The notes under the pieces: model-generated
What the model saw: the letters and a program-made list of their open reading frames with translations, nothing else
Database searches by the model: none
What the model was told of the DNA's origin: nothing
Origin: Chloroflexota bacterium
GTDB lineage: Bacteria > Chloroflexota > Anaerolineae > JAAYEA01
Assembly (NCBI GenBank): GCA_012689325.1
Contig: JAAYEA010000288.1
Span: forward strand, 1 to 36,130
DNA length: 36,130 bases
Direction: 5' to 3'
Part shown: one piece after another, positions 7,655 to 23,403 of the stretch
How the letters are laid out: the number at the start of each line of letters is the position of its first letter
How positions within the stretch are numbered: the stretch's first letter is position 1
Position numbers and translations under genes: made by a program

Positions 7655-7672
7655 TTGACAGAAATTTCACAA
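7655..7672 (+). promoter_or_regulatory. Rex-box-like operator 1, over the -35
   Basis: The site reads TTGACA-N6-TCACAA. The known Rex consensus is close to TTGTGA-N6-TCACAA. The right half is perfect; the left half is compromised by also serving as the -35 hexamer. Confidence 0.55.
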
Positions 7673-7683
7673 AGTGCTATACT
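7655..7683 (+). promoter_or_regulatory. Promoter of the rex-formate dehydrogenase operon
   Basis: Consensus -35 TTGACA (7655-7660), exactly 17 bp, then TATACT (7678-7683). Rex-box-like sites overlap the -35 and lie just after the -10. A perfect 9-bp inverted repeat TCACAAAGT/ACTTTGTGA (7667-7675 and 7681-7689) encloses the -10. Confidence 0.8.
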
Positions 7684-7701
7684 TTGTGACAAAAGTAACA
7701 A
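7684..7701 (+). promoter_or_regulatory. Rex-box-like operator 2, at the transcription start
   Basis: TTGTGA-N6-TAACAA, a near-consensus Rex site lying immediately after the -10. Bound Rex would block initiation, so the operon should be autorepressed when NADH is low. Confidence 0.65.
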
Positions 7702-7733
7702 ACGTTGGCGTGATTCGGGGAGGGATGAGGGAC

Positions 7734-8390
7734 ATGAGCGAGACCTATGGCATTCCCAGGCCAAGCCTGCGGCGCTTGCCGATCTATTACCGCCATCTGA
7801 TCGAGATGGCCGAGCGCCAGGTGCCCTATGTCTCCTCCAAGGATTTGGGGCAAAATGCCGGGGTCCCGGCCTCGCAGGTGCGCAAGGATCTCAGCTATCT
7901 GCACGAGTATGGCCGCCCGGGTGTCGGCTATGACACCAAGGCGCTGGCCGGCTATCTGGAGGAATTCCTGGGCCTAGCCAACGATAAGGAAGCGATCCTG
8001 GTGGGCGTGGGCAACCTGGGGCGCGCCTTGACCCTCTACCCAGGGTTTGCCCAATATGGCCTGCAGATCATCGCCCTGTTCGATATCGATCCGGCCAAAA
8101 TCGGCCAGACGGTGGGCGACCGCGAAGTGCTGCCCATGTTCAAGCTCGTCGACCTGGCCCGGCGGCTCAAGGTCCAGATGGGCATCATCACCGTGCCGCC
8201 ACACGCCGCCCAAGAGGTAGCCAGCGCCATGGTCTCCGGCGGCATCAAGGTGATCTGGAACTTTGCGCCCTGCAAGCTCACCGTGCCCGCCGAGGTGCTG
8301 GTCAAGAGCGAGGATTTGGCCGCCGAGCTGGCCGCCCTATCCCATCACATCATGCGACGCAGCCAGGTTCTGGCGCCCGCGACCGAATAG
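7734..8390 (+). CDS. rex: Redox-sensing transcriptional repressor Rex
   Basis: The product is 218 aa, the usual Rex length. The ATG at 7734 is chosen because GGAGG (7719-7723) sits 10 bases upstream; the in-frame ATG at 7725 touches the Shine-Dalgarno. The N-terminal winged helix (about 1-75) has the family signatures RRLPIYYRHL and the recognition segment SSKDLGQNAGVPASQVRKDLSYL. A Rossmann domain follows with the nucleotide loop GVGNLGRAL, the acidic strand end LFDID and a C-terminal helix used for domain swapping. By family knowledge the dimer binds DNA when NAD+ is high and is released by NADH. It is the first gene of an operon with the NuoF/GltD chimera (38-bp gap), formate dehydrogenase and a [2Fe-2S] protein. 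Two Rex-box-like sites lie in its own promoter and another at 17556, so it probably governs both redox operons. Confidence 0.95.
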   Translation: MSETYGIPRPSLRRLPIYYRHLIEMAERQVPYVSSKDLGQNAGVPASQVRKDLSYLHEYGRPGVGYDTKALAGYLEEFLGLANDKEAILVGVGNLGRALTLYPGFAQYGLQIIALFDIDPAKIGQTVGDREVLPMFKLVDLARRLKVQMGIITVPPHAAQEVASAMVSGGIKVIWNFAPCKLTVPAEVLVKSEDLAAELAALSHHIMRRSQVLAPATE

Positions 8391-8428: not shown

Positions 8429-10399
8429 TTGAGCAATCTGGTCTTTGGAATCTGGGACGGACAGCGAATCGACCATCGCGACGACGGCTACGAAGGCGAC
8501 ATCCCCGCCCAATTGGCCAAGCTGGAGAGTTACCAGCCCGGCGAAAGGGTGCTGGCCGTGATGGGCTGGGATGGCTTTTTGGTCTTTGATGACCAAGTCG
8601 ACGTGATCGACATGGCCCGAGCTTATATGGAGATGGTGCAGGGCGAATCCTGCGGCAAGTGTGTGCCCTGCCGGATGGGCACCCGCGTGGCCTCGGAAAT
8701 CCTGACCCGCATCGCCGATGGGCGCGGGACCGCCGAGGACCTCAAGACGCTGCGCCGCGTGGGCGAGCTGGTCCAGGCCGGGTCCATGTGCGAGCTGGGC
8801 CACACCGGCATGAACGCCGTGCTGGCCATGATGGACCACTATGGGGCCGAGTTCGACCGCGCCATCGCGGAAGGCAAGCGCCGGCCGCGGGGCCAGTATC
8901 ACACCAAGATCACCGCGCCCTGCATCGAGGCTTGCCCGGAGCGCCTGGACATCCCTCGCTACATCGAGTACATCAAGTCCGGCCGCTATGCCGACTCGCT
9001 GGAAGTGATCCGGGAAAAGAACCCGTTGGCCTCGGTCTGCGGGCGGGTCTGCGTGCGTTTTTGCGAGTTCGCCTGCCGCCGCGGCAAGCTGGACGACCCC
9101 GTCAGCATCAAGCACCTCAAGCGCTTCGTCGGCGATGTGGAGATCGATCACGCCGTCAAGCGGCTGCAGCCCCAGGTGCAGGTGCCGCCCGAGGCGCCCA
9201 AAGTGGCCGTCATCGGCGCGGGGCCGGCGGGCATGACCGCGGCCTATCACCTGCTGAACAAGGGCTACAACGTCGAGATCTTTGAGGCGCTGGGCGAGCC
9301 GGGCGGCATGGCCGCCGTGGGCATCCCCGACTATCGCCTGCCGCGCGAGATCCTGCGCACCGAATGGGAGATCATCCAGAGCATGGGCGCCAAGATCCAC
9401 TATTACCAGCGCCTGGGCCAGGATTTCACCCTGCAAGACCTGCGGGACCGCGGCTTTGCCGCCACCTTTGTGGCTATCGGCGCGCAAGGCGGGCGCGGCA
9501 TGGGCGTCAAGGGCGAGGAGGAAAAGCCCCAGGGCTACCTGCTGGGCGTCGATTTTCTACGGCGCATCAACCTGAACGAGCCGCTCCCCAAGGCCCGCGA
9601 GGTGGTGGTGGTCGGCGGCGGCAACGTCGCCATGGACTGCGCCCGCTCCGCGCTGCGGAGAGGCGCCCAAAAAGTGCACCTGGTCTATCGGCGCACCCGC
9701 GACGCCATGCCCGCCGACAAGGTCGAGGTCCATGACGCGGAAGAGGAAGGCGTCGAGTATCACTTTCTGTGCAACCCCACCCGGCTGATGATCGAGGAGG
9801 GGCGCGTCGTCGGCGTCGAGTGCAATCGCCAAGAGCTGGGCGAGCCGGATGCCAGCGGGCGCCGCAGCCCGGTGGCGGTCAAGGGCTCCGAGTTTGTGAT
9901 CCCCTGCGACCTGGTCATCCCGGCCATCGGCCAGCAGGTAGAGACCGCTTGCGTGCAGGGAGAGGGCAGCCCAACCACGACCAAGTACGGGACCATCCAG
10001 GCCGACCCAGATACCCTGGTCACCAACGTGGAGGGGCTTTTTGCCGGCGGCGATTGCGTCTCCGGCCCGGCCACGCTGATCGAGGCCATGGCCGCCGGCC
10101 TGCGCGTCAGCAACTCGATCGACCAGTACCTGCGCGAGGGCAAGGTCACCCTCACCGAAGACGAGCGGATGAGCCGCGTTTTCCGGAGCATCGCCGCGCT
10201 GGATGCGCAGGTACACTCCCAGGGCGATATGGATCGGCTGGGCGGCGCCCAGCGCATGGAAGCGCCCATGCGCGAGGCCCAAGAGCGTATCGATGATTTC
10301 GAAGAGGTCGAGATGGCCCTCACGCCGGAGGATGCCCTGCTGGAGGCGGACCGGTGTCTGCGGTGCTATCGCATCCTCCTCGTCGCAACCGAAAGCTAA
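8429..10399 (+). CDS. NuoF C-terminal/GltD-type chimeric NAD(P)H oxidoreductase subunit
   Basis: The start is TTG; AAAGGAG (8414-8420) eight bases upstream fixes it and there is no nearby ATG. The product is 656 aa. Residues 1-120 resemble only the end of NuoF (SLBB remnant plus the NADH_4Fe-4S domain): ESCGKCVPC gives Cys75, 78 and 81, with Cys121 as fourth ligand. The NuoF FMN/NADH-binding domain is missing. From about 165 the protein is GltD-like: a Cys-rich dihydropyrimidine-dehydrogenase-type Fe-S domain (CIEACPERLDIPRY; CGRVCVRFCEFAC), an FAD loop (GAGPAGMTAAY, about 260) and a pyridine-nucleotide loop (GGGNVAMDCA, about 393). A terminal CLRC motif closes it. It should pass electrons between NAD(P)H and the formate dehydrogenase encoded 13 bp downstream. 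NADH versus NADPH cannot be decided by eye. Confidence 0.85.
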   Translation: MSNLVFGIWDGQRIDHRDDGYEGDIPAQLAKLESYQPGERVLAVMGWDGFLVFDDQVDVIDMARAYMEMVQGESCGKCVPCRMGTRVASEILTRIADGRGTAEDLKTLRRVGELVQAGSMCELGHTGMNAVLAMMDHYGAEFDRAIAEGKRRPRGQYHTKITAPCIEACPERLDIPRYIEYIKSGRYADSLEVIREKNPLASVCGRVCVRFCEFACRRGKLDDPVSIKHLKRFVGDVEIDHAVKRLQPQVQVPPEAPKVAVIGAGPAGMTAAYHLLNKGYNVEIFEALGEPGGMAAVGIPDYRLPREILRTEWEIIQSMGAKIHYYQRLGQDFTLQDLRDRGFAATFVAIGAQGGRGMGVKGEEEKPQGYLLGVDFLRRINLNEPLPKAREVVVVGGGNVAMDCARSALRRGAQKVHLVYRRTRDAMPADKVEVHDAEEEGVEYHFLCNPTRLMIEEGRVVGVECNRQELGEPDASGRRSPVAVKGSEFVIPCDLVIPAIGQQVETACVQGEGSPTTTKYGTIQADPDTLVTNVEGLFAGGDCVSGPATLIEAMAAGLRVSNSIDQYLREGKVTLTEDERMSRVFRSIAALDAQVHSQGDMDRLGGAQRMEAPMREAQERIDDFEEVEMALTPEDALLEADRCLRCYRILLVATES

Positions 10400-10412
10400 C
10401 AAGGGGAATCTG

Positions 10413-13274
10413 ATGGCATCATTCACGAGACACGACCTGAAGCGCATCCATCTCACCGTCAACGGCAGGCCCATCCTCGCCCGCGCCGGTCAAACCGTGC
10501 TGGAGGCCGCCCGCGAGAACGGCATTCATATCCCGACGCTGTGCTACCACGAAAAGCTCAAGCCCATCGGCGCTTGCCGGCTCTGCGTGGTGGACGTGGC
10601 GGGCACGCCGACGCCGGTGACCTCCTGCACCACGCCGGCCACCGAGGGCATGGTGGTCACCACCGACTCGGCCATGCTGGAGAATCTGCGGCGAGAGACG
10701 CTCAAGCTGCTGCTCCTGCGCCACCCGATGAACTGCGCCGCCTGCGAGCTGAACGGCAATTGCCAGCTGCAGGACCTGGTGCACGAGTACGATATCACCC
10801 ATCAGGACCTGCACACCTACGAGATCACCCCCGTCGAATATGACGCGGGGGTCTGGGCCACGCCGCTCATCAAGTATCACCCGCAGCGCTGCGTCCTGTG
10901 CGGGCGCTGCGTGCAGGCCTGCATCGAGATCACCGGCGCGGGCGCCATCAACTTTAAGGGACGCGGCGCCACGACCCGCATCGCGCCGGTGGAGCCGACG
11001 CTCAATTCGCAGGGCGAATGCGTCTCCTGCGGCGAGTGCATGGCCATCTGCCCCGTCAATGCCCTCACCGAGGCCAACGCCAAGCCCAAGGGCAAGCCCT
11101 GGGAAACCACCCGAGTCAAGACCGTCTGCGGCTATTGCGGCTGCGGCTGCGAGCTCGAGCTGAACGTGGTCCACGGCCAGGTGGTGGGTGTGACGCCCGC
11201 CGGGGATAACGGCGTCAACAATGGCGCGCTCTGCGCCAAAGGGCGCTTTGGCTACGGGTTCATCAACCACCAGGACCGCCTCAAGGAGCCGATGATCAAG
11301 CGGGATGGCTATTGGGAGCAGTCCAACTGGGACGAGGCGCTGGACTATATCGCCGACAAGCTGTTGCAGATTCGCGACCAGCACGGCCCGGATGCCATCG
11401 CCGCGCTCAGCTCGGCGCGCTGCACCAACGAGGACAATTACCTGTTCCAAAAGCTGACGAGGGGAGTCATCGGCACCAACAACATCGACCATTGCGCCCG
11501 TCTCTGACACTCGGTCACTGTGGCCGGTCTGGCCGCATCATTCGGCAGTGGCGCGATGACCAACTCGATGTCCGAGATCGAGCACACCGACTGTATCCTG
11601 ATCACGGGCAGCAACACGGCGGAGACCCACCCCATCATCGGGCGCATGGTCAAGCGGGCGGTGCAACGCAACCGGGCCAAGCTGATCATCGTGGACCCGC
11701 GCCAGGTAGAGTTGACCAAGTACGCCCACATCTGGCTGCGTCCCCGCCCAGGCACCGACGTGGCCTGGATCAACGGCCTGATGAACGTCATCATCGCTGA
11801 AGAGCTGTGGGACAAGGTCTACGTCCAGGAGCGCACCGAGGGATTCGAGGCGATGCGCCAGGCCGTGGCGCCCTATACCCCCGAGGTGGTTAGCAAGATC
11901 ACCGGCGTGCCCGCCGAGGACATCCGGCGCGCGGCGCGGATGTACGCCAAGGCGCCACGGGCCATGCAGCTTTACGCCATGGGCATCACCCAGCACTCCA
12001 CGGGCACGAACAATGTCATGGCACTGGCCAACCTGGCCATGCTCTGCGGCAACGTCGGCATCGAGGGCGGCGGCGTGAACCCCCTGCGCGGGCAGGGGAA
12101 CGTACAGGGCGCCTGCGACATGGGCGCGCTGCCCAACGTGTTCCCCGGCTACCAGTCCGTCACCGACGAGGCCGTCTTGGGCAAGTTCGAACAGGGGTGG
12201 GGCACCGGCATGCGGCTCTCCAACCGCCTCGGGCTCATGCTCACCGAGATGTTCCCGGCCATCATGGACGGCAAGCTCAAAGCCATGCTGATCATGGGCG
12301 AGAACCCCGTGCTGAGCGACGCCAACGCCACCCACGTGAAGGAAGCGCTGGAAAAGCTGGACCTGCTGGTGGTGCAAGACATCTTTTTCACCGAGACGGC
12401 GCAACTGGCCGATGTGGTCTTGCCCGCCGCCTCGTTCGCGGAAAAGGACGGTACGTTCACCAACACCGAGCGCCGCGTGCAACGCGTGCGCAAGGCCATC
12501 GACCCGCCGGGCAGCGCCATGCCCGATTGGCAGATCATCTGCGCCCTGGCCGAGCGGATCGGGCAAAAGCTGCAGGAGCGGCGCGACCGCGACAATGGCC
12601 GCAACGCCGCCCGGGCCGCCGCTCGCCCGGCGTATGGTCGCTGGGACTATGCCTCGCCCTCCGAGATTTTCGACGAGATGGCCTCGCTGACGCCCAGCTA
12701 TGCCGGCATCAGCTATGAGCGCCTGGAGCGCGGCGGCCTGCAGTGGCCCTGCCCGACCAAGTATCACCCCGGCACGCCCTATTTGCACAAGGGGCGCTTC
12801 ACCAGGGGCAAGGGCAAGTTCGCCGCCATCGAGTTCGCGCCGTCGGCCGAGCTGCCCAACGAGGAATATCCCTTCTACCTGAGCACGGGGCGCATCCGCT
12901 ACCACTATCACACGGGCACCATGACACGGCGCTCGCCGGGGTTGGAGACCATCGCCCCCGAGGAGCGCCTGGAGCTGAACCCTCAGGACGCGCAGCGGAT
13001 GGGCATCGCCGAGGGCGACCTGGTGCGGGTGACCTCGCGCCGCGGCAGCATCGAGGCCAAGGTCCGGCTCAGCGAGCGCTCGTCGCCGGGGATGGTCTTT
13101 GGGACCTTCCACTTCCGGGAGGTGCCGATCAACGTGTTGACCAACAATGCGCTGGACCCGGTGGCCAAGATCCCCGAGTACAAGGTCTGCGCGGTGCGCG
13201 TGGAACGGGTGCCCACCGCCGAGCGCCCGGCAGCGCCCGAACGCAAAGCGGCGGAGGAACTCCAGCCGGCATAG
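10413..13274 (+). CDS. fdhA: Selenocysteine-containing formate dehydrogenase, catalytic subunit (TGA at 11505 read as Sec)
   Basis: Read as one gene of 953 aa, with Sec365 encoded by the TGA at 11505-11507. The frame continues unbroken to 13274, and the surroundings DHCARL-Sec-HS..VAGL are the classic formate dehydrogenase active-site motif. The ATG at 10413 follows AAGGGG. N-terminal region: a [2Fe-2S] domain (Cys44, 55, 58, 72), a NuoG-like His104/Cys108/Cys111/Cys117 cluster site and two 4Fe-4S ferredoxin motifs (CVLCGRCVQAC; CVSCGECMAIC). Then come a molybdopterin-family [4Fe-4S] motif (CGYCGCGC, about 240) and the large bis-MGD domain. The C-terminal dinucleotide-binding domain contains YPFYLSTGR. 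It should oxidise formate or reduce CO2 at Mo or W, passing electrons to the upstream flavoprotein. It is soluble: no signal peptide or membrane helix. The selenocysteine machinery and cofactor genes must lie elsewhere. Confidence 0.93.
11505..11550 (+). promoter_or_regulatory. Bacterial SECIS element for selenocysteine insertion
   Basis: Directly after the TGA a 7-bp stem (11519-11525 with 11531-11537, one G-U pair) displays the apical loop GGTCT (11526-11530). Eighteen bases separate TGA and loop. From memory, the E. coli fdhF SECIS has the same loop and spacing. An outer CACTG/CAGTG pairing (11516-11520, 11546-11550) is possible. Confidence 0.85.
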
Positions 13275-13332: not shown

Positions 13333-13356
13333 CATCCATCAATGGGGAGAGAGCGA

Positions 13357-13611
13357 ATGGTCACAGTCTTGGTGTGCTTGGGGAGTTCCTGCTACGTGCG
13401 CGGCTCGGAGCAGATCGCCGCGACGTTCGAGCAGTTGATCGAAAAGGAAGGGCTGCAGAATCAGGTCGATCTGCGGGGCAGCCTGTGCATGGAGCACTGC
13501 GCCATGGGCGTTTCGGTGCGCGTCGGCGAGCGGGTGTATCACCAGCTCAGCCCCGAGGGCGCCGACAAGTTCTTCTATAACGAGATCGTGCCGCTGGCCC
13601 GCGAGTCCTAG
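13357..13611 (+). CDS. Small NuoE-like thioredoxin-fold [2Fe-2S] protein
   Basis: The product is 84 aa. The ATG at 13357 follows a purine-rich GGGGAGAGAG. It corresponds to the thioredoxin-like [2Fe-2S] domain of NuoE/HoxE without the N-terminal helical part. Ligand Cys pairs are in VCLGSSCYVRG (Cys7, Cys12) and GSLCMEHCAMGV. By homology it relays electrons next to a NuoF-type subunit. Last gene of the rex-fdhA operon, 82 bp after fdhA, it is the natural partner of the chimeric NuoF/GltD subunit. A clear paralogue is encoded at 17213-17476 beside the hydrogenase, so each redox operon carries its own copy. Confidence 0.85.
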   Translation: MVTVLVCLGSSCYVRGSEQIAATFEQLIEKEGLQNQVDLRGSLCMEHCAMGVSVRVGERVYHQLSPEGADKFFYNEIVPLARES

Positions 13612-13703: not shown

Positions 13704-14252
13704 TTACTTCGAGTTACGCGACACCGCCCAGTTGATGCTCAGGGCGATGGCGCCGCCGATCAGGGCCGTCGCCAGTTGCGGCCATTGCATCATGGTGGCA
13801 ATCGAGGCGGGGATGGACACGCTCTGCGCGCTCCCGCCGATCAACAGGTTGAGCGGGCGGCTCACCAGCAACGTCACCACGCCATAGAGCAACAAGAACT
13901 TGGCCGCCGCCGCGGCGCCCACCGCCAGCCAGCGGTTGGTCCGGCGCAGCGCGCCAAAGGTCGCCGAGTAGAGCGCGTTGCCCATGGCGATAAAGGGGAT
14001 CATCATCCACAGAGGCAGGGGCAGAACGCCCCGCAGCGCCGCGCCCAGCGGCGTCACCATGCCCAAAAGCAGCGCCGGCGTGACCCCGCTCCACAGGACG
14101 GTCAAAAGCAACAGGGCATTCACCAGCGAACCGGTCACCAGTTGGGTCATGCCCAAATTGGGGATGATAACCGCCAGGGCCAGCAGAGCCACAAACTGGG
14201 CCGTGCCAGCCCAGGGCCAAGATCGACTCCATACGTTTTCGCGAGTGTTCAC
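13704..14252 (-). CDS. ECF-S-like small integral membrane protein of the hydrogenase operon
   Basis: The product is 182 aa, starting at GTG (14252) after AGGAGG with a short four-base spacer; no better start exists in this frame. It is almost entirely hydrophobic, with about five to six membrane helices, and resembles the S-component type of energy-coupling-factor transporters. Similar small membrane proteins are, as I recall, found beside [FeFe]-hydrogenase genes and have sometimes been labelled iron hydrogenase although they carry no metal motifs; this one has no cysteines. It is the last gene of the minus-strand operon, 79 bp after the SpoIIE phosphatase. It might import a cofactor precursor or metal for the hydrogenase, but no ECF A or T component is nearby and no ligand is evident. 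Confidence 0.6.
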   Translation of the reverse strand: MNTRENVWSRSWPWAGTAQFVALLALAVIIPNLGMTQLVTGSLVNALLLLTVLWSGVTPALLLGMVTPLGAALRGVLPLPLWMMIPFIAMGNALYSATFGALRRTNRWLAVGAAAAAKFLLLYGVVTLLVSRPLNLLIGGSAQSVSIPASIATMMQWPQLATALIGGAIALSINWAVSRNSK

Positions 14253-14331: not shown

Positions 14332-15507
14332 CTAGATTTTCTCCAGCACGACGTCTTTTTGCCGCTCCTCCAGCACGCGGAGCAGGTCTTTGACGTACAC
14401 CATGCGCATCGGCTCGCCGCGGATCAGGTCGGCAACCTGGTTGGGGTTCAGCGCCATGCCCACCAGCAGCTTGATGCGGTCGGCGGAGAGCAGGATGCGC
14501 GCCAGCCGGGTGGCCGCGTCGCTATCCGGCGGCAGGTCGTGGACCGTCTGGCACTGCTCCAGCAGCTCCACGGTCTGGCCCAGGGTCAGGATGCCCTCGG
14601 TGACCAGGTCCACCCCCTCCAGGGTGGCGGTGGGCGGCGTGCCGGTCTTACGCGACGGGCGGCCCTGGCGTTTGCTCGGCGGCACCCATTCCACTTTCAG
14701 CTCTTTGCCCAGCACGCGCGCCGCGATCTGGGCGGTGGTGCCGCCGCAGATCACCTTGACCCCCTCGCCGCTCATGAGCTTTTCCACGGCCTCCACATCT
14801 CGCGCCTTGTCCGACGGCGGGCCGGTCAGGACGGTGGCGGTGACGGCGCGACGCACGCGCATGCCCACAACGGTGGCATCATCGCCCGGCTTGCCATCGT
14901 ACAATTTGGCGCAGGTGCGCGAGAGCGCCCGGGTGAGCCCATGGGCATCGCCGCCGGTCTGGACCCAGCGCCGCACCGAGACGGCAATGTTCTTCCAGCC
15001 CCAGCCCAGGCGATAGAGGCCGCCCACGCCGGCGTGCACATAGCCGTCGCTGAACATGACCATGTAATCGCCCTCGCGCAGCTTGAAATGCGCCTCCTTG
15101 ACCTTGCGGCCGCCGATCTCCCGCTCGGTGCGGGCGATCTCGGCGATCTCGCCGTCGCGGATCAGGACCAAGGGCGGGTTATCGTATTCCACCAAGTAGG
15201 CCTCGTGGCCGCGATAGACCTTGAGCATGGTCAGCGTGGCATAGGCCAGCTTGCGCACCTGGCACTCCGGCAGGGTCTCGGCCAGGGTCGCCATCACGTC
15301 TTCCACGCGCGCGCCCTGCTCGAACATCGAGGACGCGATCTGGGCGCTCAGGGTGGCGAGGATATTGGCCTTGACCCCGCTGCCCAGCCCATCGGAAAGC
15401 ACCGCAGTGAACGAGTCGGGCGTGGTCGTGATCTTGACGCAATCGCCACACAACTCCTCGCCGTGCTTGGCCAGGGACTCCCAGGAGGTCTCGACGATCT
15501 GGGTCAT
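14332..15507 (-). CDS. SpoIIE-family serine phosphatase linked to the sensory hydrogenase
   Basis: The product is 391 aa. The ATG at 15507 overlaps the upstream hydrogenase stop as ATGA. Residues 1 to about 225 form a PP2C/SpoIIE domain with metal-binding motifs VLSDGLGSGVKA, VMFSDGYVHAG and KPGDDATVV. The remaining 165 residues are not a known catalytic domain to me: they include an ICGGTTAQIAARVLG segment, a Lys/Arg-rich stretch and a helical end. PP2C phosphatases of this type usually dephosphorylate anti-sigma antagonists or other Ser/Thr-phosphorylated regulators. Tight coupling to a PAS-containing [FeFe]-hydrogenase suggests it is the output of H2 or redox sensing, as proposed for group C (HydS-type) clusters. 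Substrate unknown. Confidence 0.85.
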   Translation of the reverse strand: MTQIVETSWESLAKHGEELCGDCVKITTTPDSFTAVLSDGLGSGVKANILATLSAQIASSMFEQGARVEDVMATLAETLPECQVRKLAYATLTMLKVYRGHEAYLVEYDNPPLVLIRDGEIAEIARTEREIGGRKVKEAHFKLREGDYMVMFSDGYVHAGVGGLYRLGWGWKNIAVSVRRWVQTGGDAHGLTRALSRTCAKLYDGKPGDDATVVGMRVRRAVTATVLTGPPSDKARDVEAVEKLMSGEGVKVICGGTTAQIAARVLGKELKVEWVPPSKRQGRPSRKTGTPPTATLEGVDLVTEGILTLGQTVELLEQCQTVHDLPPDSDAATRLARILLSADRIKLLVGMALNPNQVADLIRGEPMRMVYVKDLLRVLEERQKDVVLEKI

Positions 15508-17216
15508 TGCCCTTTGCCTTCCTCCAGCAGCTTGGCCAGCTTGGAGAGCATCATCTTGGATTCGGCGGTGGTCTCGCCCAAAAGCTGCGCGATCTCTTGC
15601 GCCACCACCATCTGCTTGTGGACGACTTCTTGTGTACGCTTCAGGGTCTCGGTGCGGATACGCTCCAGTTGCTCCTGCTGGCCAACCTGCTCGGTCACGT
15701 CGCGCAGCACGCCCACGATCAAGCTTTGGCCCTTCACCGGGACGATGCTCTGCTCCAGGATTAGCCCATCGCGCACCTGGATCCGCTCGCCGACGACGGT
15801 GTGGCCGGTGCTCCGGACGCGCGCAAAGCTCTCCACGTTGGGCAGGATGGTCTGCAGCGGCTGACCCACCACGGCGGACTCTTGGCAGCAGAACATGCTC
15901 TCCGCGGACGGCGAGATATCCTGGATACGCAGGCGAGTATCCACGATGATCACCGGCTCCGGGGTGACGGCCATGATCACCTGGCGCAGCCCCTCGGCGC
16001 GGCGGCGCATGTAGGGGATGCACATCGTCGCTTCGGCCATGCCGCGCAGCGTGGCGATGGCCTTCTCGCGGCAGGTGGCATAGCCGCAGGCGCCGCAGTT
16101 CAGCTCGTCTTCGGTGGTATACTTGTCCACCAAGTGCAAGACGCGCTGGATATCCTGGTCGGAGAACTCGGGCGCCGACACGCCCCGATCGGTGTAAGCG
16201 CGCTCCAGATCGGGCCACTCGCCGCGCTCGGGCAGGGGCTCGGGCTGGCGCTGCGTGGCATAGGCAATGACCCGCTGCCGGGCCAGGTAGATGCTGCCGG
16301 TGCTCTTCATCGCCGGGCCATTGATGCAGCCGCCCTCGCAGGCCATCAGCTCGACCATCTCGGCATCGAGCTTGGCCGCGCGGATGCTATCGAGCACATC
16401 GCGGCAGGCCTCCAGCCCCGAGGTGGTGACAATGTTGCTCGCCAGGATATCCGTATCCATCTTGGCCGTGCCGACCAGGCCGCCCTCCACGGGGAACAGC
16501 CGGGCATTGGCGCGCGGGACCGGCAGGCTCTCCGGCGCTGCCGAGGGCCACTCCACGTGCTCTGCCTCGAACCATTCCTGCAGCTCCTCGAAGGTCAGCG
16601 CCGCATCGATCACGCCAGCCACCGCCTCGTCGTCAATCTCGCCCTTTTTGGCGATGCAAGGGCCGATAAAGACGATCAAGGCGCCGGGGTACTTGTCCTT
16701 GAGCCAGCGCCCATGCGCCAATAGCGGCGAGACCAACGGCGCCAGGTGAGGAATGAGGTCCGGGTAATACTTTTCGATCAGGTTCACCACCACCGGGCAG
16801 GACGAAGTGACCACTGGCTGGCTCTGGGGGTGATCGGTGACCCAGTCCTTGTGCGCCAGGCCGACCATCTCGGCGCCGAAGGCCGTCTCGCCAGCGGCGG
16901 CAAACCCCAGCTTGCCCAGCGCCGTTTCCATCTGGGCAAAGCTGCGCATCTCGAAAAAGGCGGGAGCCGAGGGGGCCACACTGGCCACCACGGTGCGCCC
17001 GGCGGCGATGGCCTCGCGCACCTTGGGCCGATCATCGCGGACGACCTTGGCGCCCTGCGGGCATTCCAGGACGCAACTGCCGCAAGCGATGCACAACTCG
17101 GGCACCACTTGCGCCTGACCGTTCTCCACGCGCACGGCCTTGACGGAGCAGGCGCGGACGCAACGATAGCAGTCGCGACAGCGCGCCAGGTTGGTGCTGA
17201 CCACGGAGGTGCTCAT
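15504..17216 (-). CDS. hydS: Sensory (group C, HydS-type) [FeFe]-hydrogenase with C-terminal PAS domain
   Basis: The product is 570 aa; its ATG overlaps the upstream stop. Two ferredoxin-type clusters lie at the N-terminus (Cys13, 16, 19, 23; Cys42, 45, 48, 52). The H-cluster domain has ligands Cys140 (TSSCP), Cys187 (GPCIAKKGE), and Cys293 and Cys297 (MACEGGC). In catalytic [FeFe]-hydrogenases the first motif is TSCCP, where the first Cys carries protons; here it is Ser139, so turnover is probably poor and the role sensory. After it come another [4Fe-4S] module (NCGACGYATC, about 371), a PAS domain (about 405-510) and a C-terminal coiled coil (about 510-570) suited to signal transfer. It lies between a NuoE-like protein and a SpoIIE phosphatase, both overlapping by four bases. 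No HydE/F/G maturases are in the window. A Rex-like box sits by the operon promoter. Confidence 0.9.
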   Translation of the reverse strand: MSTSVVSTNLARCRDCYRCVRACSVKAVRVENGQAQVVPELCIACGSCVLECPQGAKVVRDDRPKVREAIAAGRTVVASVAPSAPAFFEMRSFAQMETALGKLGFAAAGETAFGAEMVGLAHKDWVTDHPQSQPVVTSSCPVVVNLIEKYYPDLIPHLAPLVSPLLAHGRWLKDKYPGALIVFIGPCIAKKGEIDDEAVAGVIDAALTFEELQEWFEAEHVEWPSAAPESLPVPRANARLFPVEGGLVGTAKMDTDILASNIVTTSGLEACRDVLDSIRAAKLDAEMVELMACEGGCINGPAMKSTGSIYLARQRVIAYATQRQPEPLPERGEWPDLERAYTDRGVSAPEFSDQDIQRVLHLVDKYTTEDELNCGACGYATCREKAIATLRGMAEATMCIPYMRRRAEGLRQVIMAVTPEPVIIVDTRLRIQDISPSAESMFCCQESAVVGQPLQTILPNVESFARVRSTGHTVVGERIQVRDGLILEQSIVPVKGQSLIVGVLRDVTEQVGQQEQLERIRTETLKRTQEVVHKQMVVAQEIAQLLGETTAESKMMLSKLAKLLEEGKGQ

Positions 17217-17476
17217 GAGGCCTCCTCACCCTGCGCCAAAGGCAAGACCTCGCTATTGAAAAAGGCCTCGGCGTCCTGGACCTGGATGCCGCGGTATCCC
17301 TTGTTGCCCACGCGGATCGAGACGCCCGTCGAGCATTGCTCCATACAAAAGGCGCCCACCAGCTCGATCCGAGCCGCCAGGTTCGACTTGGCGATCAGGT
17401 CCTCCAGCGCCATGGCCAGCTCCTCCGAGCCATGCACGCTGCACGAGCTGCCGACGCAAATAGTGATGCTGAGCAT
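17213..17476 (-). CDS. Small NuoE-like thioredoxin-fold [2Fe-2S] protein of the hydrogenase operon
   Basis: The product is 87 aa. The ATG (17476-17474) follows GGAGGG. Cys pairs lie in ICVGSSCSVHG and GAFCMEQCSTGV, the same spacing as its paralogue at 13357-13611, with conserved GVSIRVG. It is the first gene of the operon and its stop overlaps the hydrogenase start. Such domains hand electrons to or from hydrogenase and NuoF-type subunits, so this one may couple the sensor hydrogenase to the cell's ferredoxin or NADH pool. Confidence 0.85.
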   Translation of the reverse strand: MLSITICVGSSCSVHGSEELAMALEDLIAKSNLAARIELVGAFCMEQCSTGVSIRVGNKGYRGIQVQDAEAFFNSEVLPLAQGEEAS

Positions 17477-17555: not shown

Positions 17556-17573
17556 TCGTGAAAAATGTAACAA
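17556..17573 (+). promoter_or_regulatory. Rex-box-like site between the hydrogenase operon and the response regulator
   Basis: TCGTGA-N6-TAACAA, differing by one base in the half-sites from the box at 7684-7701 (TTGTGA-N6-TAACAA). It could serve the minus-strand operon or the divergent regulator gene. Confidence 0.5.
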
Positions 17574-17628: not shown

Positions 17629-17734
17629 GAAGGAGTACCCCTGTGAGACAAGCTCGGAGTGAGAGGGCCAAGGCCAAGCCCCTGGCCAGGCCCGGCCTAC
17701 GGAATAGCGTTCAATGCGGTGGGAGGAGGATGGC

Positions 17735-18400
17735 ATGGCCAAAGAGATCCGAGTTTTGGTGGTGGACGACCACGCCGTGGTGCGGCAAGGCGTCCGCGCG
17801 CTCTTGGAGACCGAAGGAGGCATCACCATCGTGGGCGAAGCGCGGGATGGGCAGGAAGCCCTGGCCCAGATCCGGGCGCTCAAGCCGGATGTGGTGCTCC
17901 TGGACCTGGTGATGCCCAACATGGACGGCAACGAGGTGATCCGTCGCGCGGTGAGCGAGGGGCTCAAGACCCGCATCCTGGTCTTGACCAGTTTCGCCAC
18001 CGATGACAAGGTCTTTCCGGCCATCAAGGCAGGGGCGCTGGGCTACTTGCTCAAAGACTCGGGGCCGCGGGACCTCCTGGAGGCCATCCAACAGGTCTAT
18101 CGCGGCGAGACCTCCCTTTCCCCGGCCATCGCCCGCAAGCTGGTGCTGGAGCTCTCGCGTCCCGCCGAACAGCCGCTCACCACCGATCCGCTGACGGGCC
18201 GGGAGGTGGAGGTGCTCCGGCTGCTGGCGCGGGGAATGAGCAACCAGGCGATCGCGGAGGAACTGGTGGTAAGCGAGGCCACGGTGCGCACCCACGTGAG
18301 CAACATCCTCAGCAAGCTGCACCTGGCCAGCCGCACCCAGGCCGCGCTCTATGCGCTCAAGGAAGGGATCGCCTCGCTGGACGATGCCCCCGATCTATAG
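17735..18400 (+). CDS. NarL/FixJ-family response regulator
   Basis: The product is 221 aa. The ATG at 17735 is chosen for the GGGAGGAGG at 17721-17729; an earlier in-frame ATG at 17714 has no such site. The receiver domain (1 to about 120) has the acidic pair Asp11/Asp12, phosphoacceptor Asp57 in [11 protein letters not shown], the Thr/Ser switch in VLTSFA and Lys in YLLKD. A LuxR-type helix-turn-helix (about 150-212: [21 protein letters not shown] and the recognition helix [13 protein letters not shown]) binds DNA. No NarL-type (HisKA_3) kinase is adjacent; the nearest kinase (21127) is HisKA type, which rarely pairs with this family. It is divergent from the sensory hydrogenase operon and shares a 260-bp control region with it, so a role in the same redox response is plausible but unproven. 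Confidence 0.92.
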
Positions 18401-21126: not shown

Positions 21127-23403
21127 ATGAATGGCAACCCGGCCCTAGACCCACCAACGATCTTGGCGGTCCCAGCCTGGCTTGCCTATGCCCTGCTCTT
21201 CTGCGTCGCGCTCCTGAGCCGAGGCCCGCGCCCCCTCGCCAAGTGGCTATTGGCGCTCTATTTCGCCACCGCCTTTGTGGCCAATGCCGGAACCGCGCTG
21301 CCTAGCGTAGCCTTTCTGCGCGACACGTGGCTCGGCGAGACATTGTCTGGGCTATCTCCCTGCGCCATGGGTGCCTGGCCAGCCACGTTCTACTTGCTGA
21401 CCCTGGCCTATCTCCGGTGGCAGCCACGCCGCGGCGTCGCCTGGATCATCGGGCTGGCCTGGCCGCTGCTGATCACCCCCATCTGCTTTCTGCTCTTCCC
21501 TGCGTGGCGTGACGCCCCTGTTTTCCGAGCCATCTCCGGCTATGCGCCCCTCGCCGGGTGGATCCTGGCTATCTTGGCGTGCGGCGCCATGCTCGGATAC
21601 CAACGGCTGCACACGCCCCGCCCTCGCCGCCGCAACGAGATCGATTACTGGGTGCTGATCTGGGCCTTCCTGGCGGTGGGGCAAGCTGGCTACTTTTGGA
21701 ACAAGGGCATCACCCGAGACGCCGGCATTGCCATTGCGACGCTGGTGGGGGTCTTGATGTGCTATGCGGCGCTAAGGCCGGACCTGGCCGACCTGAAGCA
21801 CCTGCTCCGGCGAGTCTCCGGCTATTTGGTGGTGACGCTGATCACCGTGATCGTCTACTTTGCGGCCATCAGCGTCCTGCAGGTCTCCGCCTCCCGCTTG
21901 CCTGCCCCCTTCAGCCGACTGATCGGCGTCAGCATCGCCGCCATCGCCCTGACCGTGCTCTATCAGCCGCTATACCAGTTTGTACAAAAGACGATCGACC
22001 GGCTCGTTTGGGGCGCGGGCTATGACAACTATGTGGCCTTGAGCGACTATGGCCAGCATATCGAAGGGCTCACCGACTTGGAGGAACTGGCGGTCAAGGC
22101 GGTGACGCTCATTGCCCACGCCTTTGGCGCCGAGCGCGGCGCCATGATCAACGTCGAGCGCAAGGAGGAAGAGGGGCTCACCTTGCGCGCGGTCCCTGGG
22201 ATGGGCGTGATCGGCGCCTTTCCGCTGGGGGTATCCAGAAGCCACCCGGTGATCAAGTACCTGGAGGAAACCAGCGCGCCCCTGCGGCAACGAGACCTGG
22301 AGCGCTCGCTCGAGTTCCGCGCGATCCCCGAGCGGGATCAGGAATGGTTTGCCTTTCTGAACATGTCGGTCTATGTGCCCGTCAAGTCCGAAGACAGGCT
22401 GATCGGGATCATCGCCCTGGGGCCCAAGCGAGAGGGGGCGCCCTATCTCCGCAGCGAACTGGAGCTGCTGGCCTCCCTGGGGGAGCAGACGGCGCTGCCG
22501 CTCCGGAACGCGCAACGCTTCATCGAGCTCTCGAACATGAACGCGAACATGGCCCGGCTGAACGAGGACCTGCGCCGGCTGGACGAGGCCAAGTCCAACT
22601 TTTTGACCATCGCCTCCCACGAGCTCAAGACCCCCCTGACCCTGATTCAGGGTTACACCAACATCCTGACCTCCTTGCCCGCGGTCGACCTGCAGAACGG
22701 CGACAAGATCGCCCACATCACCGAGGGCATCTCGCGCGGGACGGAGCGCTTGCGCCAGATCATCGACGACATGATCGATATCTCGCGCATCGACGCCAAC
22801 GCGCTGGACCTGCATTGGCGGGAATGTCGGCTCGGCCAGATCATGGGCCCGGCCATCGCGCAATTGGCGCCGATCGCGCAAGAGCGCCAGCAACGCCTGG
22901 AGGTCGGCGACTTGGAAGGCCTGCCTCCCTTCGAGGGAGATCCTCAGCGGCTGCACCAGGCGTTTCATAACATCATCGAGAACGCCATCAAGTTCACGCC
23001 GGATGGCGGCCGAATCTCGATCTCGGCGCGGCTGCTGGGCGGCGACGAGCCAGCCGAGCAGTTCATCGAGGTGATCATCGCGGATACCGGCATCGGCATC
23101 GCCCTGGAGGACCAGGAGCGCATCTTTACCAAGTTTTTCCGCGTGGGCGACGTCTCGCTGCATAGCTCCAGCCGGGTGCAGTTCAAAGGCGGAGGACCTG
23201 GCTTGGGCCTGGCCATCACCAAGGGCATCATCGAAGCGCATGGCGGTAAGATCTGGGTGGCCAGCGAAGGGCACGACGAGGATAATCCGCCTGGCAGCGA
23301 GTTTCACGTCCTGCTCATGCTGCGCGCGCCGCAGAGCCTCAAGCGGGATCTCTTGCACGAATATGGCGGCCCCTCTGCGCCGGAGGACCGCCCCGCCCCT
23401 TGA
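21127..23403 (+). CDS. Membrane sensor histidine kinase with GAF domain
   Basis: The product is 758 aa; the ATG follows GGAGAG. The N-terminal 300 residues contain about eight to nine membrane helices, resembling a 7TM-type sensor region. A GAF-type domain (about 305-465) follows, then a short helical linker and HisKA with phosphoacceptor His498 in FLTIASHELKTPLTLIQ. The ATPase domain shows N box HNIIENAIKF, G1 IADTGIGI, F box FTKFF and G2 GPGLGLAITKGI. A roughly 20-residue acidic/proline tail ends the protein. It should autophosphorylate in response to a membrane or small-molecule signal. No response regulator gene of the matching OmpR type is adjacent, so its partner lies elsewhere. Confidence 0.92.
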   Translation: MNGNPALDPPTILAVPAWLAYALLFCVALLSRGPRPLAKWLLALYFATAFVANAGTALPSVAFLRDTWLGETLSGLSPCAMGAWPATFYLLTLAYLRWQPRRGVAWIIGLAWPLLITPICFLLFPAWRDAPVFRAISGYAPLAGWILAILACGAMLGYQRLHTPRPRRRNEIDYWVLIWAFLAVGQAGYFWNKGITRDAGIAIATLVGVLMCYAALRPDLADLKHLLRRVSGYLVVTLITVIVYFAAISVLQVSASRLPAPFSRLIGVSIAAIALTVLYQPLYQFVQKTIDRLVWGAGYDNYVALSDYGQHIEGLTDLEELAVKAVTLIAHAFGAERGAMINVERKEEEGLTLRAVPGMGVIGAFPLGVSRSHPVIKYLEETSAPLRQRDLERSLEFRAIPERDQEWFAFLNMSVYVPVKSEDRLIGIIALGPKREGAPYLRSELELLASLGEQTALPLRNAQRFIELSNMNANMARLNEDLRRLDEAKSNFLTIASHELKTPLTLIQGYTNILTSLPAVDLQNGDKIAHITEGISRGTERLRQIIDDMIDISRIDANALDLHWRECRLGQIMGPAIAQLAPIAQERQQRLEVGDLEGLPPFEGDPQRLHQAFHNIIENAIKFTPDGGRISISARLLGGDEPAEQFIEVIIADTGIGIALEDQERIFTKFFRVGDVSLHSSSRVQFKGGGPGLGLAITKGIIEAHGGKIWVASEGHDEDNPPGSEFHVLLMLRAPQSLKRDLLHEYGGPSAPEDRPAP

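Follow-up and report, generated by a model that had tools for sequence, protein, structure and literature searches.

The 36,130-nucleotide contig JAAYEA010000288.1 (GenBank assembly GCA_012689325.1), referred to here as the window, comes from a Chloroflexota bacterium of the class Anaerolineae and encodes HydS, an [FeFe]-hydrogenase-type receptor of group C3, beside a SpoIIE-type phosphatase. What was unexpected is that this C3-type receptor occurs in a genome in which none of the three known maturases HydE, HydF and HydG scores above its cut-off. The hydrogenase-phosphatase pairing itself is already known as group C3 of HydDB; because the C3 class and the hfs operon have both been published, the idea put forward in an earlier reading of this DNA (the original prediction), that a hydrogenase is wired to a phosphatase, is already in print. 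In the explanation that we favor, HydS belongs to a coupled operon and signals to SpoIIE, its hydrogenase domain (H-domain) is likely a redox reporter that lacks the diiron site, and the operon is probably under Rex control. Taken as a whole, we give this explanation an even chance of being correct.

The hydS gene lies on the minus strand at 15504-17216, starts with ATG and encodes 570 amino acids, exactly the reading frame that had been proposed. The N-terminal part has two [4Fe-4S] motifs. Pfam assigns a ferredoxin domain to residues 8-56, a Fe_hyd_lg_C domain to residues 75-301 (E 1.1e-53), a PF04060 Fe-S match to residues 372-401 and a PAS_4 domain to residues 418-510, the last one barely above the cut-off (23.5 vs 23.1 bits). 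The PAS region spans about 412-510 and follows a C-terminal [4Fe-4S] motif, Cx2Cx4Cx16C (C374/C377/C382/C399), which is invariant in a 34-sequence alignment (A3). All four H-cluster cysteines (C140, C187, C293 and C297) are present, in the motifs TSSCP (Ser139, Cys140), PCIAKK (Cys187, Lys190) and CEGGC (Cys293, Cys297). Translation and alignment place Ser139 (codon 16800-16802, minus strand) in the position of the proton-shuttle cysteine, which we take to be C299 of CpI via the TSCCP motif (PMC10055695); the CpI equivalences used here are motif-based. The position of CpI M353 is occupied by Gly. An AlphaFold model of HydS (mean pLDDT, the predicted local distance difference test, 87.4) matched the 50 listed solved [FeFe]-hydrogenase entries with Z scores of 26.4-35.6 over 269-352 residues, including CbA5H (8zqd_A; Z 35.6, root mean square deviation (rmsd) 2.6, 336 aligned) and CpI (4xdc_A; Z 31.3, rmsd 3.0, 340 aligned). 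The cysteines, the serine in the shuttle position, the PAS domain and the overlapping SpoIIE gene had all been named in the original prediction, and each of them holds. Judged by the cysteines, the PAS domain after the Fe-S motif and the adjacent phosphatase gene, HydS is securely assigned to C3.

Relatives of HydS were collected from genome contigs by a scan based on an alignment of nine sequences; of 134 relatives, 80 were retained. They were picked with two peptide patterns taken from the branch of HydS, and the sample therefore leans towards this branch; the counts ignore phylogenetic kinship. The 80 loci are labeled Chloroflexota, Syntrophaceae and other Deltaproteobacteria, Desulfotomaculum relatives, Planctomycetes, Omnitrophota, Ignavibacteria and others. 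A SpoIIE gene lies directly downstream of hydS in 77 of them, and the three exceptions are at contig ends with 1, 128 and 711 bp left. In 57 of the 80 loci a group A hydrogenase gene is located upstream in the same orientation, no more than 6.5 kb away; none of the 15 loci labeled Chloroflexota, Anaerolineae or Dehalococcoidia has one there (6/15 have at least 6.5 kb upstream).

The diiron half of the H-cluster is made by three maturases, HydE, HydF and HydG, and H-cluster assembly is described as requiring all three of these dedicated proteins (PMC11736057). The genome that contains the window (G000) is a metagenome-assembled genome (MAG) of 580 contigs with a completeness of 96.8%. A PF02906 search of this genome found a single protein, HydS, and no catalytic [FeFe]-hydrogenase (group A) gene. 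The HydG and HydE profiles had no match in it at E 0.001, and the best HydF match reached 94.3 bits, compared with a cut-off of 325.55. One of 14 control genomes, presumably that of T. maritima, passes the cut-offs of all three profiles (254.6 bits for HydE).

The same pattern recurs for the maturases in the sampled class genomes with PF02906. Among 298 Anaerolineae genomes, a draw and not the complete class, 19 contain PF02906, and 12 of these have a completeness of 90% or more and a contamination of 5% or less. Going by motifs and the length of the C-terminus, we read 13 of these 19 genomes as carrying the C3 type (one clipped by a contig end), nine as carrying a group A-type gene and four as carrying both. 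HydG has no match at E 0.001 in any of the 19. HydF is above the cut-off in none of them; the sub-cut-off matches found in all 19 (best 105.1 bits) were taken for other GTPases, and this search covered the class genomes but not G298, G301, G302 and other relatives. The HydE search, which covered 32 genomes, gave nothing above the cut-off in 22 Chloroflexota genomes (the 19 plus three named ones); the best score was 41.4 bits in G252. Across 400 genomes drawn from the phylum, again not the complete phylum, HydG was never above the cut-off; 27 genomes gave weak matches (best 201.8 bits), which were taken for ThiH-like enzymes. In contrast, HydG passes in 42 of the 50 genomes of HydS relatives, with E 2.8e-135 or better: in 40 of 45 from outside the Chloroflexota and in two of five labeled Chloroflexota. 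The latter two (L079 and L080) are labeled Dehalococcoidia (AH-958), contain HydE as well and are, we assume, single-cell genomes. Their HydS branches adjoin those of L081 and L082, from genomes without HydE and HydG, and this constitutes a natural comparison.

One of these class genomes, G252, consists of one contig of 2.95 Mb with 99% completeness. It contains a group A gene with the motifs TSCCP, MPC and CPGGC, and HydE, HydF and HydG are all below the cut-off or absent. Contamination as the cause of a HydS gene without maturases above the cut-off was rejected, because the HydS-SpoIIE pair occurs in 12 class genomes, including that of the window, and in a thirteenth it is clipped at a contig end. 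Judged by title, we recognized no report on missing maturases in Chloroflexota in the literature searched. Two further features of G252 are recorded here. The score of 41.4 bits with the HydE profile belongs to a 389-amino acid frame, and the genome (L054, L066) also encodes a different HydS-like protein with the motif TSSCCP, in whose 18 kb no SpoIIE match was seen.

To our knowledge, there is no route for H-cluster assembly that is independent of HydE, HydF and HydG. For this reason we prefer the view that the H-domain of HydS most likely holds only its [4Fe-4S] cluster and would report the redox state, i.e. reduced ferredoxin, and not H2. The receptor part of the proposed H2/redox receptor stands; its H2 part cannot be assumed, as no maturase scores above the cut-off, a point that the original prediction did not raise.

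Several observations weigh against a diiron-free H-domain. Lys190 (presumably K358 of CpI, by motif), P82, S83, S163, P164, G185 and the four cysteine ligands are the same in all 14 HydG-less Chloroflexota rows of the alignment. Ten of 14 listed positions around the site (82, 140, 163, 164, 185, 187, 190, 246, 293 and 297) are uniform and identical in these 14 rows and in 42 HydG-bearing ones. The other four vary: position 83 is Ser, with Ala in three of the 42 HydG-bearing rows; position 139 is Ser or Ala and once Pro; position 165 is Met, with Leu solely in the window protein and Ala once; position 291 is Met in all 14 HydG-less rows and Met or Leu in the 42 others. Of the H-domain positions fixed to 95% or more in the HydG-bearing rows, none drops below 50% in the HydG-less rows, and decay of the pocket in the maturase-free branch was rejected on this test. 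The ratio of nonsynonymous to synonymous substitution rates (dN/dS) is 0.08-0.10 for the H-domain and 0.06-0.10 for the whole gene in four close pairs, three of them drawn from a single genus represented by three genomes; a single group A pair gave 0.046. These values indicate that hydS is under purifying selection. Furthermore, the four class genomes that combine a C3 HydS with a group A-type gene (TSCCP was read in three of them) belong on this side of the argument. Finally, the genome of the window has two PF00374 frames, on contigs C27 and C399 (E 1.9e-18 and 1.1e-16). PF00374 is the family of the [NiFe] large-subunit type; since these frames may encode [NiFe] hydrogenases or related proteins, H2 could still be relevant to the cell.

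The alternative that survives best is that HydS senses H2 in the usual manner of a C3 protein and has a complete H-cluster, which the Anaerolineae would assemble by an unrecognized HydEFG-independent route. The diiron-pocket residues kept in 14/14 HydG-less rows and the purifying selection fit this view, as do group A genes in maturase-free genomes, G252 included, in which TSCCP, MPC and CPGGC were read at six loci. However, no such route is known to us, no candidate enzyme for it was found in a search limited to HydE, HydF and HydG, and the best HydE-profile match of G252 is far below the cut-off. We consider this alternative unlikely. The broader proposition that Anaerolineae build functional H-clusters, both in HydS and in group A hydrogenases, without HydE, HydF and HydG through an undescribed maturation route is in our judgment also unlikely.

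It is still less probable that the maturases are present and were missed, be it through assembly gaps, extreme divergence or a supply of cofactor or protein from elsewhere. Most of the genomes are indeed fragmented MAGs. Among the five HydG misses outside the Chloroflexota (G307, G313, G332, G333 and G341), G333 has HydE above the cut-off and G332 a 60-residue HydE fragment, and assembly gaps therefore explain some of these misses. The HydE cut-off is also imperfect: in three HydG-bearing genomes, G308 and G317 pass while G336 falls below it (219.7 vs 254.6 bits) in spite of a clear HydG. L079 and L080 with their HydG and HydE point in the same direction. On the other hand, HydG is lacking in 19 of 19 class genomes, including the 12 of high completeness and low contamination; G252 is one contig; the passing relatives score with HydG at extremely low E values; and the best HydE-profile match in 22 Chloroflexota genomes is only 41.4 bits. 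The diiron-free redox reporter remains the reading that we prefer.

The putative output of HydS is the SpoIIE-type PP2C phosphatase encoded at 14332-15507 on the minus strand (391 amino acids; PF07228, E 3.7e-17). Its model (pLDDT 88.1) has a PP2C domain (residues 1-222) and a C-terminal domain (residues 223-391). In a structure search with the whole model the matches covered residues 1-222; this part aligned with 3pu9_A (Z 24.2, rmsd 3.0, 217 aligned) and with SpoIIE of B. subtilis (5ucg_A; Z 23.5, rmsd 2.9, 215 aligned). D39, D154, D209 and D210 are invariant in 36 sequences and are, we assume, the metal-binding aspartates of PP2C. The C-terminal domain has an alpha/beta fold in the model and is present in all 36 aligned C3-linked phosphatases. 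No credible Pfam match was found for it in a hmmscan of the 36 sequences, and a 13-sequence profile run against solved chains gave nothing convincing (best E 0.012, to a segment of a translation initiation factor). Its invariant residues, namely GPP, a Gly of CGGTT, VTEG, and the G and N of VG...N, sit in loops that follow strands, and these loops may form a ligand site.

The tail of HydS offers a candidate for the contact with this phosphatase. Two terminal helices are predicted (508-545 and 551-567; pLDDT is low, 54-58, from residue 541 onward). The motif QxxxAxxxAxxLGExTA in this region is nearly invariant across 81 rows: Q535, A539 and L546 are found in 81/81 rows, and G547 and A551 in 79/81. 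In alignment A3 the tail motif has more invariant columns than the PAS domain. Conservation thus makes it the best candidate for the phosphatase contact. The combination of a C3-linked phosphatase carrying the C-terminal domain with the HydS tail helix is spread over several phyla.

The original prediction had also drawn a divergent response regulator into the pathway. The gene is there: a NarL-type regulator (Pfam) is encoded at 17714-18400 on the plus strand, 237 bp away from the operon. That the receptor acts through this regulator instead of the phosphatase is nevertheless very improbable. A few of the 80 relatives have a response-regulator match inside the fetched flanks (e.g. L108 and L111). 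But when 14 Chloroflexota loci, some of them short, were compared, no regulator family was common to as many as three, whereas SpoIIE is present in 14/14. The operon also contains no histidine kinase; the nearest one seen in the window is at 21127-23403. Hence the divergent position of the regulator was correct and its part in the pathway was not borne out, while the predicted coupling to the phosphatase is upheld by the 77 loci.

A receptor rather than a catalytic enzyme had likewise been predicted, and a phylogeny had been suggested as the check. In a tree of H-domains HydS falls into a clade of Chloroflexota and Syntrophaceae-type sequences (support 1.0), which is SpoIIE-linked and apart from group A; the C3 set as a whole is poorly supported (0.205), and the 20 group A sequences are not monophyletic under the rooting used. 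Although HydS shares the fold and the four H-cluster cysteines with the catalytic metabolic hydrogenases of group A, the notion that it is one of them is hardly credible in view of its score with the group A profile TIGR02512 (113.6 bits, cut-off 405.95), its position outside group A in the tree, Ser139 and the Gly at the M353 position, and the attached PAS domain and phosphatase gene. The best NCBIfam subfamily, group B1, is below its cut-off as well (223.2 vs 450 bits). Group D (M2e) was rejected, since membership requires that there is no PAS domain. One HydS-like protein, L060 (G022:C295), lies outside the C3 clade; in its P3 motif, aligned as FCD-GCINGP, the spacing of the two cysteines is shorter by one residue, and no SpoIIE match was seen in its 6.5 kb.

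The hydS gene overlaps both of its neighbors in the operon by ATGA, the SpoIIE gene downstream and a [2Fe-2S] gene upstream. The latter (17213-17476, minus strand, 87 amino acids) is the first gene of the operon and encodes a small thioredoxin-like [2Fe-2S] ferredoxin. Its NCBIfam match to a 2Fe-2S ferredoxin is weak (E 1.5e-5, below the cut-off), and a Pfam scan gave no match. A homolog lies immediately upstream of hydS in 31 of the 80 loci.

The window also encodes the redox-sensing repressor Rex (7674-8390, plus strand; NCBIfam), a probable regulator of the operon. The Rex consensus is TTGTGAN6TCACAA. With at most two mismatches this pattern occurs three times in the window, while 60 first-order shuffles gave a mean of 0.37 (largest 3). 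Two of the sites are at rex itself (7655-7672 and 7684-7701); the third, with two mismatches, is a palindrome in the promoter region of the HydS operon (17556-17573, no strand assigned). A Rex-like site precedes the operon in six of the 14 loci, with a shuffle fraction of 0 to 0.02 each; two of the six (L050 and L072) share one genus. Control by Rex is weakened by the results with looser matches: when three mismatches are allowed the window has five sites, compared with 4.67 expected by chance, and in the other eight loci the best sites have four or five mismatches, which is chance level. For some loci the region searched was counted from hydS itself, where the start of the operon may lie further upstream. 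With six of 14 loci positive, control by Rex is likely limited to part of the branch.

The anatomy and conservation described above suggest how the system might work. The translationally coupled operon would make the [2Fe-2S] ferredoxin, HydS and the PP2C serine phosphatase together. The Fe-S chain and the H-domain would change state on receiving electrons from the small ferredoxin or, should a diiron site be present, in response to H2. This change could then be relayed by the C-terminal Fe-S domain and the PAS domain to the terminal helix, whose conserved residues would set the activity of SpoIIE on a phosphoprotein. Rex probably tunes expression of the operon to the NADH/NAD ratio.

The remaining surroundings can be described briefly. 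A small membrane protein is encoded downstream of SpoIIE (13704-14252, minus strand); it resembles an ECF transporter by eye only, has no match in Pfam or NCBIfam, and has homologs in six of the 14 Chloroflexota loci. Between rex and this gene lies a plus-strand region with a formate dehydrogenase-type molybdopterin protein (10407-13274). Its in-frame TGA (11505-11507, within HCARL-U-HSVTVAGL) is presumably the selenocysteine place of known Fdh, and for Pfam the protein was read through the TGA as a single frame of 955 amino acids. The adjoining gene at 8429-10399 (plus strand) encodes a protein in which a NuoF-type Fe-S part precedes a GltD-like NAD(P)H oxidoreductase. Another small [2Fe-2S] protein is encoded nearby at 13342-13611. 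In one relative (L058) a formate dehydrogenase-like frame (9572-10570, minus strand) stands directly before the [2Fe-2S], HydS and SpoIIE genes on the same strand; formate metabolism may therefore be a target of the system. An Rfam search of the window gave no match at the gathering score.

The class retains hydrogenase genes that are under purifying selection and whose active-site residues are intact, yet none of the 19 sampled genomes passes the maturase cut-offs. The consequence is that either there is a second route of H-cluster assembly or a sensory hydrogenase domain can sense redox state by its Fe-S clusters, with no H2 chemistry involved. In addition, the tail helix and the C-terminal domain of the phosphatase offer a tangible starting point for work on what lies downstream of group C sensors.

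HydS resembles the C3 group as it is described in HydDB, where a PAS-bearing sensory [FeFe]-hydrogenase has an adjacent gene for a serine/threonine phosphatase; the group is listed there as phosphatase-linked (putative) with an undetermined role (PMC5037454). It differs from this description in that its genome has no HydE, HydF or HydG above the cut-off and no group A gene, and in that its branch has the conserved [2Fe-2S] partner gene and, in part, a Rex-like operator. The loss of C299 is reported to be common in groups C and D (PMC8163306; PMC10055695); among the sensory sequences of HydDB, just 17% are reported to have Cys at this position, while about 43% have Ala and about 10% Ser (PMC10055695). 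The group C protein TmHydS from Thermotoga maritima, for which a low activity is reported, also combines PAS and hydrogenase domains and has Ala instead of Cys at C299 (PMC10055695). Like HydS it has Gly at the M353 position, while at the M497 position it has Ser and HydS has Met291 (PMC8163306). TamHydS of group D shares with HydS the two N-terminal cluster motifs, the C-terminal Cx2Cx4Cx16C and the missing C299, but is described without the PAS domain that HydS contains (PMC8163306; PMC13104023). A further parallel is the hfsB-hfsC pair of Thermoanaerobacterium, a PAS hydrogenase and a serine phosphatase that have been studied genetically; like HydS and SpoIIE they are encoded in one operon, and their regulatory role was deduced from a deletion (PMC11837493). 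Thermoanaerobacterium and Ruminococcus albus, the latter with a protein called HydS, differ from the present case in that they are described as running active hydrogenases of this type (PMC11837493).

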